Below are positions 10,800 through 57,892 of a DNA stretch of 57,892 nt, one piece after another. Position numbers and translations under genes: made by a program. The DNA lies in assembly GCA_937868485.1 (NCBI GenBank), contig CALMML010000333.1:1-57892 (forward strand), in the 5' to 3' direction. Each line of letters starts with the position of its first letter. The first letter of the stretch is position 1. This stretch comes from an uncultured Myxococcales bacterium (GTDB lineage: Bacteria > Myxococcota_A > Polyangia > Palsa-1104 > JAEUJZ01). The notes beneath the pieces were generated by a model. It was not told the DNA's origin, did no database searches, and saw only the letters and a list, made by a program, of their open reading frames with translations.

Positions 10800-11582
10800 T
10801 TACGGACTCACAGGCGGGTCCACAGGCGCAGGCTGCGGCTCCGGCAAAGGCTCCGCACCGCTCACGCTCAGCCGCCGCGCACTGGCCTCCCGGTAGCAGT
10901 CGATCGGAGCCAGGGCCGACAGCGCCCGCGCCACGGTGGCCGCATCGTCACTGTCAACGGTGGCCGCCACCTTGGTCGTGTACTCGCAAATTCGCTGGCT
11001 CAACAGCCGTAGGTGCGTCGACAAGTTCGCGGCGCTGGCCGTCCGCGCCAGGCTGCTCTGCACCATCGTGCGATAGCGCGGAAGCTGTCGCCGGACGTTT
11101 TCCAAAAACTCCTGCCCACACAGCGCGGTCAGGTCCTTGTCCAGCTTGTCGTCCGAGATCCGCTGAAGCAGGGCATCCATCGCCGCAAGCTGCTCCACGT
11201 AGGTTCGCTGGGTAAACAGCAGTCCTTCGGGAAAGAGCTGCTTGACCAGCTCTTTGGCGCGCTTGGCCTTGGGATAGAAGTCCGCAGGCAGATCCGCGTA
11301 GGCCGCCAGTCGCGCCCGCAGCGCAGCCCAGCCGCGATCGCAGAGCGCATCGATGTCCCGCGCGCCGTCTTCAGCAGACGGTCCCAGGGCGCGCTGACGC
11401 TCGCTCCACGCGGTCTGGGCAGCCTGGCGGACCTTTTCCATGGCCACAGCCGCTTTCTTGACCGAAGTAGGCAGGTCCGACGGACTGGCCTGATACAGCG
11501 ACTCAGCCAGGGTGATGCCTCCGAGCAGCGTGAAGTTGGGGGTTCGGGTGTACAGGGATGGATCAAATGGTGTGTTTGACAT
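10800..11582 (-). CDS. Hypothetical helical protein with Pro-rich tail
   Basis: A 260-residue protein, nearly all helical by composition, with no signal peptide. Residues 30-230 read as a helical bundle (charged, Leu/Ala-rich), and the last 20 residues are a Pro/Glu-rich tail (EPLPEPQPAPVDPPVSP). No known domain is recognised. The gene is convergent with the TM protein gene (33 nt apart) and is followed upstream, on its 5' side, by the unusual 43-bp-pitch repeat array that begins 226 bp before its start codon. It could therefore be regulated through that array, but this is inference. Confidence 0.6.
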   Translation of the reverse strand: MSNTPFDPSLYTRTPNFTLLGGITLAESLYQASPSDLPTSVKKAAVAMEKVRQAAQTAWSERQRALGPSAEDGARDIDALCDRGWAALRARLAAYADLPADFYPKAKRAKELVKQLFPEGLLFTQRTYVEQLAAMDALLQRISDDKLDKDLTALCGQEFLENVRRQLPRYRTMVQSSLARTASAANLSTHLRLLSQRICEYTTKVAATVDSDDAATVARALSALAPIDCYREASARRLSVSGAEPLPEPQPAPVDPPVSP

Positions 11583-12077
11583 GCACAGCCCCAGGGAGCA
11601 GCCCGCATGCCAGCCCGAGCGCCCGTCCGCACAGCCCGTCGTTTCCGGTATTTCCCGACGGAATCAGAGCCTTTTTGCCGCCGATTGCCGCCGCCGCCCC
11701 GGTCCCCCTTCTGTCCGTATCTCGGACGACGTCCGGCCCACCGGATGAAGCGCCCGCACTGAAGGCCGATTCGCCTACGACTTCACGGGCAGCCCCAGCG
11801 CGCGGAAGGTCAACACCATCCCCAGCCGCCAGCGGACCCAGTCGCCCAAGGGTCGCAGCCACACGCAGACTGCGCAACCAGCCGTAAACCAAGGGTCAAC
11901 ACCATCCCCAGCTGGCCACCGACCCACTTGCACCAGGGTCGCGACCTTGCCCCCACTGCCCGTCCTGCCACTTGCGCAAGGTCTGGACCCCCCAGAAGCA
12001 GGACGCCGAGCCGATCGGCCAAGGTCTGGACCCTGTCTGCCTGCCCCAGCGCCCAGTTCTGCCGTGGTCCAGACCCG
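11583..12077. other. Non-coding region between galK and the gene at 10800-11582
   Basis: About 495 bases with no credible gene. Open frames here on both strands have Pro/Arg-rich composition, lack ribosome sites and are artefacts of high GC. The proximal third (11583-11800) shows nothing I can name. The distal part (11808-12075) is occupied by a periodic repeat array, described separately. Confidence 0.6.
11808..12075. repeat. Array of seven GGTC-N2-GACC-like sites at exact 43-bp pitch
   Basis: Ten-base sites begin at 11808 (GGTCAACACC), 11851 (GGTCGCAGCC), 11894 (GGTCAACACC), 11937 (GGTCGCGACC), 11980 and 12023 (GGTCTGGACC) and 12066 (GGTCCAGACC). Every interval is exactly 43 bp. Four of the seven are dyads of GGTC/GACC around two central bases. 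Most are preceded by C(C)AA(G). The 33-bp stretches between sites are largely unrelated, except that units 1 and 3 share 19 identical starting bases and further similarity. Because 43 is not a multiple of 3 the periodicity is not coding. The pitch is about four helical turns, so the sites would face the same side of the DNA. The array ends 3 bp before the galK stop codon. Confidence 0.8.
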
Positions 12078-13214
12078 TTACGGGATAGACGAATCGGGGA
12101 CCAAGACGGTCGGTCGGTGACCGCTCTGGGCTTCGTAGCGGCTGGCAATGCGCCGGGCCGCAGCCAGACCACAGCCTGCCCGCGCCAGCATCACCACCGA
12201 CCCACCAAAGCCGCCGCCCGTCAGCCGAGCCCCCAGAATGTCCGGGTCTGCATCGCCCAGGCTCACCAGCAGATCGATCGCTGGCACCGAGACCTGATAG
12301 TCATCACGCATCGATGCATGCGACTGCTGAAACAGCGCGCCAAGCCGTGGCCCATCCGCCGCACCGAGCGCCGTCACCGACTCTTCCACCCGCGCGTTTT
12401 CAGTGACTACATGCCGCACCCGCCGCCCCAGTGGCTCAGGAAGGGACGAAAGCTGCGGCAGCGCCGACCCATCCAGCTCGCGCAGCGACCGCACCCCGAG
12501 CAGCGCAGCCGCCTGCTCACACTCGCCACGCCGGGTTCGGTAGTCACCCACCGCGTGGCTATGGACCACGCCAGAGTGAATCACCACAAGCTCTAGCGAA
12601 GCGGGCAGCGGCACGGTCTGCATCGCCAGCGAGCGCGTGTCCAAAAACAGCGCCGCCCCCGGTCCACACAGTGAGCAGGCCAGCTGGTCCATGATTCCAA
12701 CGGGGGCACCGACCAGCTCAACCTCGGCCTTTCGGGCCAGCCGCGCAAGCTCGACATCCGTAAGCGGCAGCGCCAGGGCAATCCGCAGGGCGCGCAGCAA
12801 GCTCACCAGCAGCGCTGCGCTGGATGACAGCCCACTGCCGACCGGAACCTGAGACGATATCCGCAGCTTCAGCCCAGACAGCCCCGACCCATAGCCTTGC
12901 TGCCGAAGCACCCAAGTGACCCCGCGTACGTAGTCAAGCCAGTCTCCGGTGCGCGCTTCGTCCCCTAGCACGTACGACGCCGTGGTCCCCGACTGGCTCA
13001 GCTCATCGCTGTAGACCGTGACCCGGCCATCGCTTGCTTGGCACAGCTCCACGGTGGTTCGCTGCGGAATCGCCGTCGGCAGGACCAGGCCATCGTTGTA
13101 GTCGGTGTGCTCGCCAATCAGGTTGACCCGCCCCGGCGCGGAAGCCAAGGTGGTCGCAGGCTCGCCAAAGATCTGCGCAAAGACCGACGGGGGCCGCGCG
13201 CCGTGGGCACTCAT
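12078..13214 (-). CDS. galK: Galactokinase
   Basis: A 378-residue GHMP-family galactokinase, phosphorylating galactose at C1 with ATP as the first step of the Leloir pathway. Visible signatures are the galactokinase motif PGRVNLIGEHTDYNDG (residues 27-42), the ATP-binding GHMP motif VPVGSGLSSSAAL (about 123-135), the substrate-site segment GIMDQLACSLCGPG, and C-terminal TGGGFGGSVV. Length is normal for the family. The start ATG overlaps the stop of the YhhN-family gene (ATGA), so the two are translated from one mRNA. No galT or galE lies next to it, although an extended-SDR epimerase is encoded 4.5 kb away. Confidence 0.93.
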   Translation of the reverse strand: MSAHGARPPSVFAQIFGEPATTLASAPGRVNLIGEHTDYNDGLVLPTAIPQRTTVELCQASDGRVTVYSDELSQSGTTASYVLGDEARTGDWLDYVRGVTWVLRQQGYGSGLSGLKLRISSQVPVGSGLSSSAALLVSLLRALRIALALPLTDVELARLARKAEVELVGAPVGIMDQLACSLCGPGAALFLDTRSLAMQTVPLPASLELVVIHSGVVHSHAVGDYRTRRGECEQAAALLGVRSLRELDGSALPQLSSLPEPLGRRVRHVVTENARVEESVTALGAADGPRLGALFQQSHASMRDDYQVSVPAIDLLVSLGDADPDILGARLTGGGFGGSVVMLARAGCGLAAARRIASRYEAQSGHRPTVLVPDSSIP

Positions 13215-14480: not shown

Positions 14481-17400
14481 TCAGTCCACCACATCCACCG
14501 GGGTTCCCAGCGGCACGGTGTCAAACAAGCGCTGGGCGAACAGCTTGGGGAAGCGCACGCAGCCATGCGACTGCGGAAAGCCTGGCAGCGGACCCGCGTG
14601 CATGCCGATGCCGCCAAAGATGCGCATAAAGTACGGCATCGGTGTGCCTCGAAACGTCGCGCCTGGCGGGGCTGGCTGATCGTGGTTGTCGATGTTGGCA
14701 AGGAGCACGTCCCCGGCATCGCTCACGTAGTCGCCGTACCGACCCGAGACATACTGCGGCACCTTTTCCAGCACCGAAAAGCTGCCTTTGGGGGTCTTGT
14801 GGCTTACGCGACCACTGCAAACGGACGACTGAGCGACGGTTCTGTCGCCGTCCATAAGCTCAGCCTGCTGCCTGCCGAGGTGGATCACGATGCGAGGACG
14901 CAGCAGCTCATCTTGGACCGCCCAAAAGAAGTCGCCGCCTTTGTCCAGATCTCCAGCCCGTGCGGTCACGCTCCCCGAAGCAGACTCCGAGCAGCCAGCG
15001 GCACCAAGGAACAGCCCAAGCGACCACAGAGAGAGCCGCTGCCGCCACCGACCACTCCGCAGCGACAGCCCAAGTCCAGCCAGCAGCAGCGCCAAAAGAC
15101 CGCCGCTCGGCCCGGCGTCGGACCGTCCCAGCGGAGCCACCGCACATGCGCCCACGACAAACGGAAGGCCGATCTCGCTGCGCTCACCGACAAAGTGAAC
15201 CACAGGCTGCTGGTCCAGTAGGGTGCCGCCGACTCGGACCTCGATGGTGGCCCGACTGCCGCGCGGACCCTCCGCCAGCAGCGTGCGCTCGTAGCGACCG
15301 TGGCCAACGTCCCGTACCTCGCCGAGCCACGCCCCGCGATCGGATGTGATGGACACAGGCAGACCCGGCCCAAGCGGCTGCCCAAGCAGATCGCGCGGCG
15401 TCACTGTAACCGTCGTCGTTTCTGCGTAAGGGGCTGCGATATCCTGGCTGACTCCGACGTCAGACATGAGCGCGCTCAGGCCATACAGCTTCTCGCCACG
15501 CAGGCGGCCAAAGACGGCTTCGACGTTGAGCTGGCCAAAGCCACGCCGGGGCCCGTAGCCTCGCGCAAGAGGCTGGCTCGCCGTCGTGCGCAGCAGCTCA
15601 CGCACTTGGGTGGTCGTCAGCGTAGGGCGTGCTTCCAGCATCAGCGCCACCGCACCCGCCACATGCGGCGCAGCCTGTGAGGTCCCGCGCAGCACACCAT
15701 GCAGGCCATCATCGGCAATCAGCAGCCCGGGATCGTGCGGCAAGGCAAACGACGAGCGCGGATCGCTCTGAAGCGCTGCGGTCGACAGGGCCGACAAAAT
15801 GAACTCACCGGGGGCCACGATGTCGGGCGCAAAGCCGCCGCTTCCCAGCGGGCCTCCCGATGAAAAGGTCGCGACCCGACCCAGCTCGCGATCGAAGACG
15901 GCTTCCTTGCCATCGTTTCGCTTCCACGCCAGGCGACTGCGCAGTGCCCCCACGCTGATCGCCGAGGCAGCCGAAGCCGGAATCCCGATATAGCCATCTG
16001 GGTCCAAGTGACCGCGCAGCGCGAGGTCCAAGTCCGGGCTCTGATCCACTTGCCACAGGTCATAGCGGCGGGTCTTGCCTTGGATCGACACATGCCAGTC
16101 GCCGGGCTTGGGTGGCTCGCTGCCGGTCACGCCGCTAAGATGAATGAGCACGCCGCGCTTGCCGGTCGCCGACTGGTCGCTGGCATCAATGACCGCAGTG
16201 CCTTCCCCCTCGAACGTCGCTTTCAGGCTCTGCCCCATGGGGACCTCGAAGCGGCGACCACTTGGCGAGCGCAAGCCAACGGTCAGCTCCGCTGCGCCGC
16301 CGACCTTTGGTGGGGCACTGGCGTCGTAATACAGCTCCAGCAGCGCGAAGCTCTTTTCCGCAAGGACATCGAGCCGCGTAACCTTCAGCGTCACCTCGTG
16401 AGAGCCCAAGAGCAGTGACGCCCCTGCGTGGATGTCGTAGTCGCCAGAGTTCCCGGATGCCGTGACCAGGACGCGCCCAGGTCGGTCAGCAAACAGCTCA
16501 TCCAGCGCCACTTCCATGAGGCTGCTGCCGTCGTGTAGACCCCCAGGTCCGCCCAGGCTTAGGTTCACCACCACGGGCTGCTTGTTTTCCTCTGCGCGAT
16601 CGAGGCAGAAGCGAACTCCGAGCAGGATGTCGACGTCGTCAAACGTCACCTCATCACGGGTGGCCTTGACGATGCACAGGGTCGATTCGGGCGCGATGCC
16701 GACATAACGACCAGCGGGAAAGCGAGGACTCGTCGCCAAGCCACTGGATGCAGCGATGCCCGCAACGTGGGTGCCGTGCCCATTTGTGTCGACCTGACGA
16801 ATCGGAACCGGCGGCTGCATTCCCTTTGATTCGTAGTCGAGCACCTCATCGATGTCCTTGGCGGTGCTGACCTGCATCCCACCATAGTCGGGAAACTCTG
16901 GGTGGCGACCGTCGCGCGCCTCGGTACTGCTGAGCAGATAGCCGATGCGGGTCTTGCCCATGGGGTCGCGCAGATCGGCGTGTCGGAAGTCGGCCCCCGT
17001 ATCCACGATGCCGACCAGCACGCCCTTGCCGCGCGCCAGGTACTTGTCGCTGGCCGCCTGCGCGCCGATCAGGTTGCGGGACTGATCGAGCAGGGGACGC
17101 AGGCTGTGCAGGCCATCGATCCGCGTGACCACAGGGGAAGCCAGCAGCCCACGCAGGTCCGCAGCCGACACGCGCACTTCTGCCACCGTGCGGCTGAGCG
17201 GCGTCATCGACATCCCCGCAGGCAGCAGCCCGGGTCCAGCAAGGCTCGTCCGAACGAGCAGCCGCAGTCGCCCCGCTTCATCCAGGGCCCGCCGACTAGA
17301 CAATGGCATGCCAGCCAGATACGCCAGCACCTGGGCACGCGCCTGCGCGGTCAGTCGGCCCGTACCCAGCTGGGCATAGTCACTTCCAGATAGGACCGGC

Positions 17401-17570
17401 GGTCCCGCCACAGCAGCAGGCGGTGAAGCAAGAGCGGGCGCGACCAGGACCCCAGCGCTGGACGGAGCCGGACGAGGCGCGGCCCCACTTGGCATCGCCA
17501 CCGAGAGCAGCGAACAGCAGGTCACCTGCGAAGTTAGGCGCATCACCACAGCAGCCAAAGCCGACCTCAT
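14481..17570 (-). CDS. Fusion: subtilisin-like (S8) protease, MYXO-CTERM-like tail, internal lipobox, L,D-transpeptidase (YkuD)
   Basis: A 1029-residue exported protein. Residues 1-30 are signal-like. The S8 catalytic triad is clear: D190 in GIVDTGADF, H265 in NGHGTHVAG, S631 in GTSQAAPHVAG, with a large insertion between His and Ser. A beta-rich region follows (about 700-800). Residues 805-850 look like a MYXO-CTERM tail: a Cys, a hydrophobic helix (GGLLALLLAGLGLSL), then Arg-rich SGRWRQR. Instead of a stop, the chain continues into SLWSLGLFLGAAGC, a lipoprotein-type signal with its Cys at 860, and then an L,D-transpeptidase domain with SHGCVRF (Cys1004) and a preceding conserved His. No ATG, GTG or TTG gives the second half a good separate start. 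Proteolysis outside the cell and peptidoglycan cross-linking or lipoprotein attachment are inferred from the domains. Confidence 0.8.
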   Translation of the reverse strand: MRSALAAVVMRLTSQVTCCSLLSVAMPSGAAPRPAPSSAGVLVAPALASPPAAVAGPPVLSGSDYAQLGTGRLTAQARAQVLAYLAGMPLSSRRALDEAGRLRLLVRTSLAGPGLLPAGMSMTPLSRTVAEVRVSAADLRGLLASPVVTRIDGLHSLRPLLDQSRNLIGAQAASDKYLARGKGVLVGIVDTGADFRHADLRDPMGKTRIGYLLSSTEARDGRHPEFPDYGGMQVSTAKDIDEVLDYESKGMQPPVPIRQVDTNGHGTHVAGIAASSGLATSPRFPAGRYVGIAPESTLCIVKATRDEVTFDDVDILLGVRFCLDRAEENKQPVVVNLSLGGPGGLHDGSSLMEVALDELFADRPGRVLVTASGNSGDYDIHAGASLLLGSHEVTLKVTRLDVLAEKSFALLELYYDASAPPKVGGAAELTVGLRSPSGRRFEVPMGQSLKATFEGEGTAVIDASDQSATGKRGVLIHLSGVTGSEPPKPGDWHVSIQGKTRRYDLWQVDQSPDLDLALRGHLDPDGYIGIPASAASAISVGALRSRLAWKRNDGKEAVFDRELGRVATFSSGGPLGSGGFAPDIVAPGEFILSALSTAALQSDPRSSFALPHDPGLLIADDGLHGVLRGTSQAAPHVAGAVALMLEARPTLTTTQVRELLRTTASQPLARGYGPRRGFGQLNVEAVFGRLRGEKLYGLSALMSDVGVSQDIAAPYAETTTVTVTPRDLLGQPLGPGLPVSITSDRGAWLGEVRDVGHGRYERTLLAEGPRGSRATIEVRVGGTLLDQQPVVHFVGERSEIGLPFVVGACAVAPLGRSDAGPSGGLLALLLAGLGLSLRSGRWRQRLSLWSLGLFLGAAGCSESASGSVTARAGDLDKGGDFFWAVQDELLRPRIVIHLGRQQAELMDGDRTVAQSSVCSGRVSHKTPKGSFSVLEKVPQYVSGRYGDYVSDAGDVLLANIDNHDQPAPPGATFRGTPMPYFMRIFGGIGMHAGPLPGFPQSHGCVRFPKLFAQRLFDTVPLGTPVDVVD

Positions 17571-30773: not shown

Positions 30774-31853
30774 ATGTCGTTCTTTGAAGAGCTTACGCCA
30801 GACAATGCCGGACAAAGTCCCTACCGAAATGGCTCTGATGGAGAAGCGCAAGGACCGTACGCCTTTGCTTCAGCCAACCGCGATGCACACGGCAACGCTC
30901 GAGGCTATTCCACAGGAATCGGTCTCGCGCATGGTCAGTCAGGAGGCGCGTCCTACGACGTACTTTCCGCCAACGCAAACTTTGGTGGCTGGCGTGATGC
31001 GGGCGGCGATACAAACGTCGGATTCGGAGCAGACGCGCAGGTTGCGAAGTTCGGAATCGCGCCGGGTGGACCGCTTGGGAACTTCGGCTTTGATGTCGGA
31101 GCGCTCGATGCATCGGCCAACGCCAGCTTCAACAAAAACACCGCAGGAATCGGCGCGCAGGCCAACCTGATCGAAGGCTCGGTTTCGCACGGAACAAGTG
31201 ATCGCAACAGCGCCGATGATCGCTTCATTCGGCTCGGTGGATCGGTCGGTGTCGGTGCAGCTGGTCGCGTTCACTACGGAGACGCGGACGGAGACGGACG
31301 ACGCGAATACGGATTCGGCTTCGATGCAGGACCGGTGTCGTTTGACTACAAGACGGAAAATCCGATTGGCGACCTGCTCACAATGCCGCTGATGGGAACC
31401 AACGTCCTGATGAACGGACTGGGACTGGGACGATATGCGCCCGGATCGATGGTGCAGCGCGGCGTCGAAGGAGCCTGGGACTGGGCCACAAACGGGGGTC
31501 CAGGTCGCGCGATGTCCGCTGTCGGAAATGGCCTTTCGACCGTCGGTCGTGGCATCGGAAACGCAGCTTCCGCCGTCGGTAGTGGCATCGTAAACGGTGC
31601 TTCCGCTGTTGGTCGTGGCATCGGAAACGCAGCTTCCACCGTCGGTAGCGGCATCGTAAACGGCGCTTCCGCTGTTGGTCGTGGCATCGGAAACGCAGCT
31701 TCCGCCGTCGGTAGTGGCATCGTAAACGGCGCTTCCGCTGTTGGTCGCGGCATCGGTAGCGCAGCGTCCGCCGTCGGTAGTGGCATCGCAAACGGCGCTT
31801 CCGCTGTCGGTCGCGGCGCGCGCGCTGCCTGGAATGCGGTCACAGGCTGGTAG
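30774..31853 (+). CDS. Gly-rich protein with nine 11-residue repeats
   Basis: A 359-residue protein with no classical signal peptide. Residues 1-240 are Gly/Ala/Asn-rich with alternating beta-like stretches (NANFGGWRDAGGDTNVGFGADAQ, FGFDVGALDASANASF). Residues 255-353 are nine consecutive 11-residue repeats of pattern S-[AT]-V-G-[RS]-G-I-x-[NS]-[AG]-A, alternating an R type and an S type. Eleven-residue periodicity fits membrane-binding amphipathic helices, and the GxG spacing resembles glycine zippers. The protein ends W-NAVTGW. AAGGAG lies 7 nt before the ATG. The following metallo-hydrolase gene overlaps it by about 20 nt. A membrane-active or self-assembling role is inference; no family is recognised. 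Confidence 0.68.
   Translation: MSFFEELTPDNAGQSPYRNGSDGEAQGPYAFASANRDAHGNARGYSTGIGLAHGQSGGASYDVLSANANFGGWRDAGGDTNVGFGADAQVAKFGIAPGGPLGNFGFDVGALDASANASFNKNTAGIGAQANLIEGSVSHGTSDRNSADDRFIRLGGSVGVGAAGRVHYGDADGDGRREYGFGFDAGPVSFDYKTENPIGDLLTMPLMGTNVLMNGLGLGRYAPGSMVQRGVEGAWDWATNGGPGRAMSAVGNGLSTVGRGIGNAASAVGSGIVNGASAVGRGIGNAASTVGSGIVNGASAVGRGIGNAASAVGSGIVNGASAVGRGIGSAASAVGSGIANGASAVGRGARAAWNAVTGW
31536..31832 (+). repeat. 33-bp tandem coding repeats (9 units)
   Basis: The DNA encoding the 11-residue repeats is itself repetitive, with near-identical 66-bp pairs (two 33-bp units). This indicates recent expansion by slippage or unequal recombination. Third-position changes are few between copies. Confidence 0.8.
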
Positions 31854-33742: not shown

Positions 33743-33808
33743 TTCCCAATCGATTCCTACCTGATTCCCAATCGATTCCTACCTGATTCCCAATCGATTC
33801 CTACCTGA
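33743..33808. repeat. Three perfect 22-bp tandem repeats (six GATTCC-type 11-mers)
   Basis: Three identical 22-bp units run from 33743 to 33764, 33765 to 33786 and 33787 to 33808. Each consists of two related 11-mers, GATTCCTACCT and GATTCCCAATC, followed by a partial copy at 33809. The repeat lies between the convergent stops of the hydrolase gene and a small membrane-protein gene. A related 11-bp array is at 57817-57860. Confidence 0.9.
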
Positions 33809-33811
33809 TTC

Positions 33812-34054
33812 CTAACGAACGCGGAGCTTGAGTCCAATCGCAACTGCGGCGCAGCACAAGACGACTCCCACTCCGATCAGAAATGCGGCGGTGGCAGCGT
33901 CCCCGAGCGCACGTCGTCCAGCTTGGATCTTTCCCAGGCTCCAGATCCACTCAGGACGCACGAGGCCAAAGACCACAAACAGCACACCCACAACCAGCAG
34001 CAAGGCAGGCATAGCGATCCGTACGATCGGCGGCAGCGGTTCCATGCGTATCAC
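33812..34054 (-). CDS. Small two-TM membrane protein
   Basis: 80 residues from a GTG at 34054, or 77 from the ATG at 34045; GGAAG lies upstream of both. Two hydrophobic helices (IAMPALLLVVGVLFVVFGLV and TAAFLIGVGVVLCCAAVAIGL) flank a short charged loop. Function unknown. It is divergent from the next gene, a protein also with two TM helices. Confidence 0.55.
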   Translation of the reverse strand: MIRMEPLPPIVRIAMPALLLVVGVLFVVFGLVRPEWIWSLGKIQAGRRALGDAATAAFLIGVGVVLCCAAVAIGLKLRVR

Positions 34055-57800: not shown

Positions 57801-57822
57801 GAATCGGCTTCCTAACCGATTC
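57801..57822 (+). other. 7-bp inverted repeat leading into the repeat array
   Basis: GAATCGG (57801-57807) pairs with CCGATTC (57816-57822) across an 8-nt loop. The right arm is the start of the first 11-bp tandem repeat, so the hairpin and the array are connected. Confidence 0.55.
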
Positions 57823-57860
57823 CTACTCGATTCCTACTCGATTCCTACTCGATTCCTACT
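57817..57860. repeat. Four perfect 11-bp tandem repeats (CGATTCCTACT)
   Basis: CGATTCCTACT occurs four times without a gap from 57817 to 57860, starting 41 bp after the stop of the CxxCH lipoprotein gene. It is the same GATTCCTAC word as in the 22-bp repeats at 33743-33808, which also follow a stop codon. The array may continue in degenerate form beyond the window. Confidence 0.9.
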
Positions 57861-57892
57861 CGCGTTCAGACTGTCCGTACCTATCGGTGCTG

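Follow-up and report, generated by a model that had tools for sequence, protein, structure and literature searches.

Arrays of a palindromic core at 43-bp pitch behind genes of a myxobacterial genus: candidate docking platforms for a DNA-binding protein

Seven short sites follow each other at identical distances in the non-coding DNA behind galK of an uncultured Myxococcales bacterium. This raises the question whether they form a docking array for a protein or are the relic of a decayed tandem repeat in which only the core is under selection. We analysed the window (the whole stretch of 57,892 nucleotides), the genome it comes from, two congeneric genomes and a wide range of other genomes.

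The array behind galK

The original prediction described seven GGTCNNNNCC sites with equal spacing, and all starts and all 43-bp intervals were confirmed (Table 1). The dyads are also as described, the last four cores corresponding to GGTCNNGACC and one of them (GGTCGCGACC) being a perfect palindrome, and the array indeed occupies non-coding DNA between galK and a gene of unknown function. It is the only chain of at least three such sites in the window when pitches from 20 to 149 are tested. A PWM scan recovers it as 6 units with scores of 24-38. As the pitch of 43 is not divisible by three, a coding repeat was rejected. The site at 12108, which had been proposed as an eighth relic, is off pitch and lies within the galK reading frame, where it aligns as conserved coding sequence in relatives; it is therefore not part of the array.

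Table 1. Coordinates of the galK array, its cores and the adjoining genes (positions in the window).
Feature	Position	Strand	Basis or remark
Complete array, with 7 cores at 43-bp pitch and six 33-bp spacers	11808..12075	.	Sequence model R1, match G000:C333:11808-12075
Core 1, GGTCAACACC	11808..11817	+	Site scan
Core 2, GGTCGCAGCC, degenerate	11851..11860	+	Site scan
Core 3, GGTCAACACC	11894..11903	+	Site scan
Core 4, GGTCGCGACC, perfect palindrome	11937..11946	+	Site scan
Core 5, GGTCTGGACC	11980..11989	+	Site scan
Core 6, GGTCTGGACC	12023..12032	+	Site scan
Core 7, GGTCCAGACC, 2 bp off the galK stop codon	12066..12075	+	Site scan
galK	12078..13214	-	Pfam galactokinase domains; array adjoins the 3' end in three species
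Uncharacterised gene without Pfam match	10800..11582	-	Downstream; neighbour kept in relatives

Several other features of the window were noted. The sequence CGGACGACGTCCG (11723-11735), which looks like a promoter or operator element, belongs to a block that three species have kept in the stretch leading from the array to the start of the downstream gene. An ORF of 1029 aa (14481-17570, minus strand) has, as judged by eye, a subtilase-like N-terminal part and a C-terminal L,D-transpeptidase-like SHGCVRF motif. Other tandem repeats occur at 31540-31817 (33/66 bp), 33743-33840 (22 bp, TTCCCAATCGATTCCTACCTGA) and 57809-57862 (11 bp, TTCCTACTCGA).

Distribution, pitch and placement of the arrays

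The genomes available for the genus are that of the host (G000; 514 contigs, 6.36 Mb), CALLYL01 (G001) and JAEUKB01 'Myxococcales bacterium new MAG-84' (G002). A scan of the host genome for sites at 43-bp spacing, which had been proposed as a check, uncovered the array family at about 20 further loci. Two cores at 43 bp occur 37 times in forward and 44 times in reverse orientation, while the reversed control gave 1 and 0. The same family is present in the two congeneric MAGs, each genome of the genus carrying some 20 arrays: in the fetched loci, the PWM scan detected 21 arrays for G002 and about as many for G000, where some are truncated because many contigs end in an array. A two-unit model built on sequence only matches the host genome 67 times and the two congeneric MAGs 35 and 115 times, respectively, but a second genus of the family has just 3 weak matches and the remaining genomes tested gave 0-1.

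The array unit consists of GGTCNNNACC and 33 bp, with 3-9 units per array. The core carries 1.3-2.0 bits per fixed column (145 distinct units), while the spacer consensus is weaker. The description of the gaps as mostly unrelated thus applies to the diverged galK copy but fails genome-wide, where the 33-bp spacers have a weak common consensus. The unit is directional (log-likelihood 2111 versus 1920 for a symmetric model, in an orientation-free fit). In most arrays, the outer cores have AG on the left edge and CT on the right edge, and no other end sequence is common to them. Thus, the full-length site is probably a 14-bp palindrome, AGGGTCNNGACCCT.

Spacing is nearly invariant. Among 175 pairs of neighbouring cores that are 30-56 bp apart, 171 are separated by exactly 43 bp and four by 42 bp, with no other distance being found. 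Although the arrays behind these counts were found with a 43-bp model, a search of the host genome with a free gap (18-48 bp) revealed no irregular arrays, all genuine ones being at 43 or 42 bp.

The arrays are located at gene ends, as judged with genes called by a simple GC3 rule. When a gene points at an array, the array nearly always starts within 50 bp of its stop codon (18 of 20 cases; median 18 bp). Gaps between divergent genes are avoided (2 of 22 arrays versus 18 of 45 other gaps; Fisher p = 0.011). Array direction is independent of the direction of transcription, and the flanking genes, which include aconitase, AcrB, kinases, an aldo-keto reductase and galK, have no function in common. 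One orthologous array is found about 6 kb from parAB (G000:C112:58026-58250 and G002:C53:167324-167626), with canonical parS on other contigs; this is a single coincidence of limited weight. Linkage to the origin was rejected as a general property, since arrays of Sorangium and Polyangium-type genomes are far from parS.

Within the class, at least three cores at 43 bp were detected in 20 of 290 genomes, representing 15 of 146 genera, while the reversed pattern occurs in none of the 290. The distribution is patchy, most genomes having no arrays at the stringency used. Members of other families, namely Sorangium, Polyangium, Enhygromyxa and several MAGs, have one to three arrays each, with spacers of their own. 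With a free pitch of 30-60, all but two of the matches listed outside the genus are at multiples of three (coding repeats) or at 43+/-1. In about half of the families of the class other than that of the genus, the best spacer dyad is at the midpoint between two cores, 21.5 bp away from either one. We take this as no more than a hint, given a small mean excess and families that are not independent of each other.

A scan of 84,980 species gave 70 matching stretches, mostly from Myxococcota. Matches outside the class, in Stenotrophomonas, Pseudoxanthomonas, Streptomyces and Akkermansia, resemble REP clusters or plain tandem repeats. A Thermoanaerobaculia MAG (L099) has a unit, GGTCAAGACC-GTACCGAAATGGGTCCGGGACCAATTTGAAGAA, that is like the unit of the host genus though it belongs to another phylum. 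In Lysobacter (L051) and Saprospiraceae (L065), the distances between GGTCNNNACC-like cores are 21 and 22 bp in turn, which totals 43. Viral contigs yielded no match to the three-core pattern and a phage origin was rejected. In the open-access literature, we found no published description of such arrays.

Evolution of the arrays and possible explanations

All three species of the genus have the galK array, and its cores and pitch align while its spacers do not. The DNA around galK is 81% identical between G000 and G002. At least 12 of the 21 array positions in G002 correspond to an array at the orthologous site of G000, and the flanking proteins are 74-98% identical. In such orthologous arrays identity is about 95% at the fixed bases of the core, yet the best spacer match is only 57%, compared to 55% at non-orthologous arrays (15 orthologous array comparisons). 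A comparison of the galK 3' region between relatives had been suggested, with gaps as conserved as the cores, or a lost spacing, to be taken as signs against a functional array; the two relatives show the opposite, the array having retained its location, its 43-bp pitch and its cores while the gaps diverged. Orthologous arrays and the recurrence at about 20 loci and in other families support the original prediction of a docking array or a decayed repeat with a selected core.

Could the arrays be neutral minisatellites, with 43-bp repeats copied by slippage or unequal crossing-over and homogenised within each array, so that the pitch stays constant through the copying of whole units? Such a history is compatible with spacers being closer within arrays (identity 0.70) than between arrays (0.50), with the genome-specific spacer type of G001 (cross-locus spacer identity 0.68) and with the fact that several matches outside Myxococcota are plain tandem repeats of high identity. 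However, in a neutral minisatellite the core and the length should be no more constrained than the remainder of the unit, and here these two alone are retained when spacers diverge to about 50%. The spacers have accumulated at least 971 substitutions. Non-coding DNA adjoining the arrays has an indel/substitution ratio of 0.105, so that about 100 length changes are expected; at most about six were observed, which is far too few. In addition, arrays persist at orthologous sites, and other families again show this core at this pitch but with spacers that are unrelated, while the reversed pattern never recurs in this way. We thus regard neutral minisatellites as an unlikely explanation.

We see a similarly small chance that the arrays are mobile or selfish repeats of the REP/BIME type, dispersed by a core-recognising transposase or recombinase and landing mostly behind stop codons. 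Dispersed loci and the patchy taxonomy would fit, as would the bias for gene 3' ends, which is known for REPs (PMC3733652). There is also one array within a gene. In G002, a Ser/Thr kinase gene is split at HRDLKPD/NV by an insert of about 440 bp that contains a 43-bp array (L147:1528-1967, on G002:C42), with AACCAGA on both sides as TSD-like direct repeats, and the ortholog in G001 is also interrupted, a few codons away (L212, L202). This suggests some mobility and, if the insert is real, arrays are able to travel or expand to new sites; as it is near contig ends, the insert may be an assembly error. Its flanks occur at no other fetched array, except for one 21-bp match at chance level. A comparison of L139 with C379 of G000 gave no clean empty site for an intergenic array; the neighbourhoods differ. 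Against mobility, the ends of the arrays have nothing in common beyond the core and terminal repeats are thus lacking; the hairpin tagged with GTAG/CGTC is absent as well, and the majority of array positions being shared between G000 and G002 is not what mobile repeats would lead one to expect.

An RNA element, in which tandem hairpins (GACC-33-GGTC) at the ends of genes would terminate transcription or stabilise mRNA, was rejected as very improbable: while the arrays are at 3' ends and their spacers are partly palindromic, most strongly in G001 where RNA folding is strong (mean z -2.6), folding is weak in G000 and G002 (z about -0.6), no base-pair covariation was found between spacer columns along any dyad centre tested, orientation is unlinked to transcription, and an Rfam search had no match up to E = 1.

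We consider it somewhat more likely than not that the arrays serve a dimeric DNA-binding protein with sequence specificity as docking platforms, comparable to sopC of the F plasmid and with a candidate role in anchoring, condensing or insulating the chromosome. Docking of a protein is indicated by a conserved palindrome that keeps its helical phase, spacers that are free to change, an orientation unrelated to transcription and the lack of RNA pairing. Core sequence, pitch, conservation pattern, dispersal and placement at 3' ends are observed features of the arrays, from which we infer protein binding. Each core, in its full form AGGGTC-NN-GACCCT, would be one binding palindrome for a dimer. 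The 43-bp pitch corresponds to about four helical turns and would align all the bound dimers along the same side of the DNA, resulting in a single nucleoprotein complex. The spacer may provide weaker, species-specific contacts, with a second palindrome midway in several lineages; species-specific spacers could also stem from homogenisation instead of binding. About 20 such complexes would form at the 3' ends of genes without disturbing promoters. Their likeliest function would be the anchoring, condensation or insulation of chromosomal DNA, in the manner of SopB bound to the 43-bp repeats of sopC. The array DNA itself would be a direct bait for the candidate binding protein.

Comparison with known systems

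Several chromosome-organising proteins have dispersed chromosomal sites that are mostly single, among them matS for MatP, parS for ParB and the sites of SlmA and Noc. These resemble our arrays in being palindromes of similar size with tens of copies over one chromosome, but each locus described here is a phased array of several sites. Short repeats with spacers of equal length are also reminiscent of CRISPR. This reading was rejected, because the spacers have a common consensus; they also resemble their neighbours, the core has 10 bp rather than being a near-identical repeat of about 21-48 bp with unique spacers, and each genome has about 20 loci, which are at the ends of genes. REP/BIME elements are palindromic and intergenic, being found 3' of coding sequences where neighbouring genes are convergent or unidirectional (PMC3733652). 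Like REPs, the arrays are palindromic, intergenic and downstream of genes. They differ in having an exact long pitch and free orientation, and their consensus has neither the tagged hairpin of 20-40 bp nor covariation of its arms.

The closest resemblance is to sopC of the F plasmid, which has twelve 43-bp repeats, each with one 16-bp palindrome that is bound by a SopB dimer (PMC9178275). Read directly, this palindrome is TGGGACC-AC-GGTCCCA. Both systems are non-coding tandem arrays of several units with a pitch of exactly 43 bp, and in both each unit has a single palindrome, whose half-sites are 2 nt apart. However, the SopB palindrome is TGGGACCNNGGTCCCA, while the core found here is GGTCNNNACC with AG/CT ends, and the half-sites are in the order GACC..GGTC in sopC but GGTC..GACC in our arrays. 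The DNA between the cores is strongly divergent here, and a single site beside sopAB contrasts with about 20 dispersed chromosomal loci at gene ends.

The proteins differ as well. Each of the three genomes of the genus has one ParB_N protein, and a second, SopB-like ParB was not found in any of them. A dedicated ParB (SopB) with ParA was not found beside the arrays; only the above-mentioned array of G000/G002 is close to parAB. Canonical parS sites (TGTTYCACGTGRAACA) are present in all three genomes apart from the arrays; none is within the fetched parB regions. With a single ParB per genome and ordinary parS elsewhere, a canonical parS/ParB system was rejected. Membership in the sopC family was rejected as well, as the palindrome differs, the sole ParB has its canonical parS and the arrays are dispersed.

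Going further, it is conceivable, though rather doubtful, that the arrays represent a previously undescribed, chromosome-wide and sopC-like system of phased arrays in this myxobacterial class, read by a non-ParB protein and organising or insulating DNA at gene ends. The pitch of 43 bp (or 2 x 21.5 bp) would then reflect a physical requirement that is shared with the F-plasmid centromere but was reached independently of it. If this is true, one class of social bacteria with large genomes uses dispersed, phased multi-site arrays which no annotation names, and these have a pitch identical to that of the best-studied plasmid centromere. The arrays would then allow a test of why 43 bp is favoured, by the helical phasing of dimers or by the copying history of the repeats.
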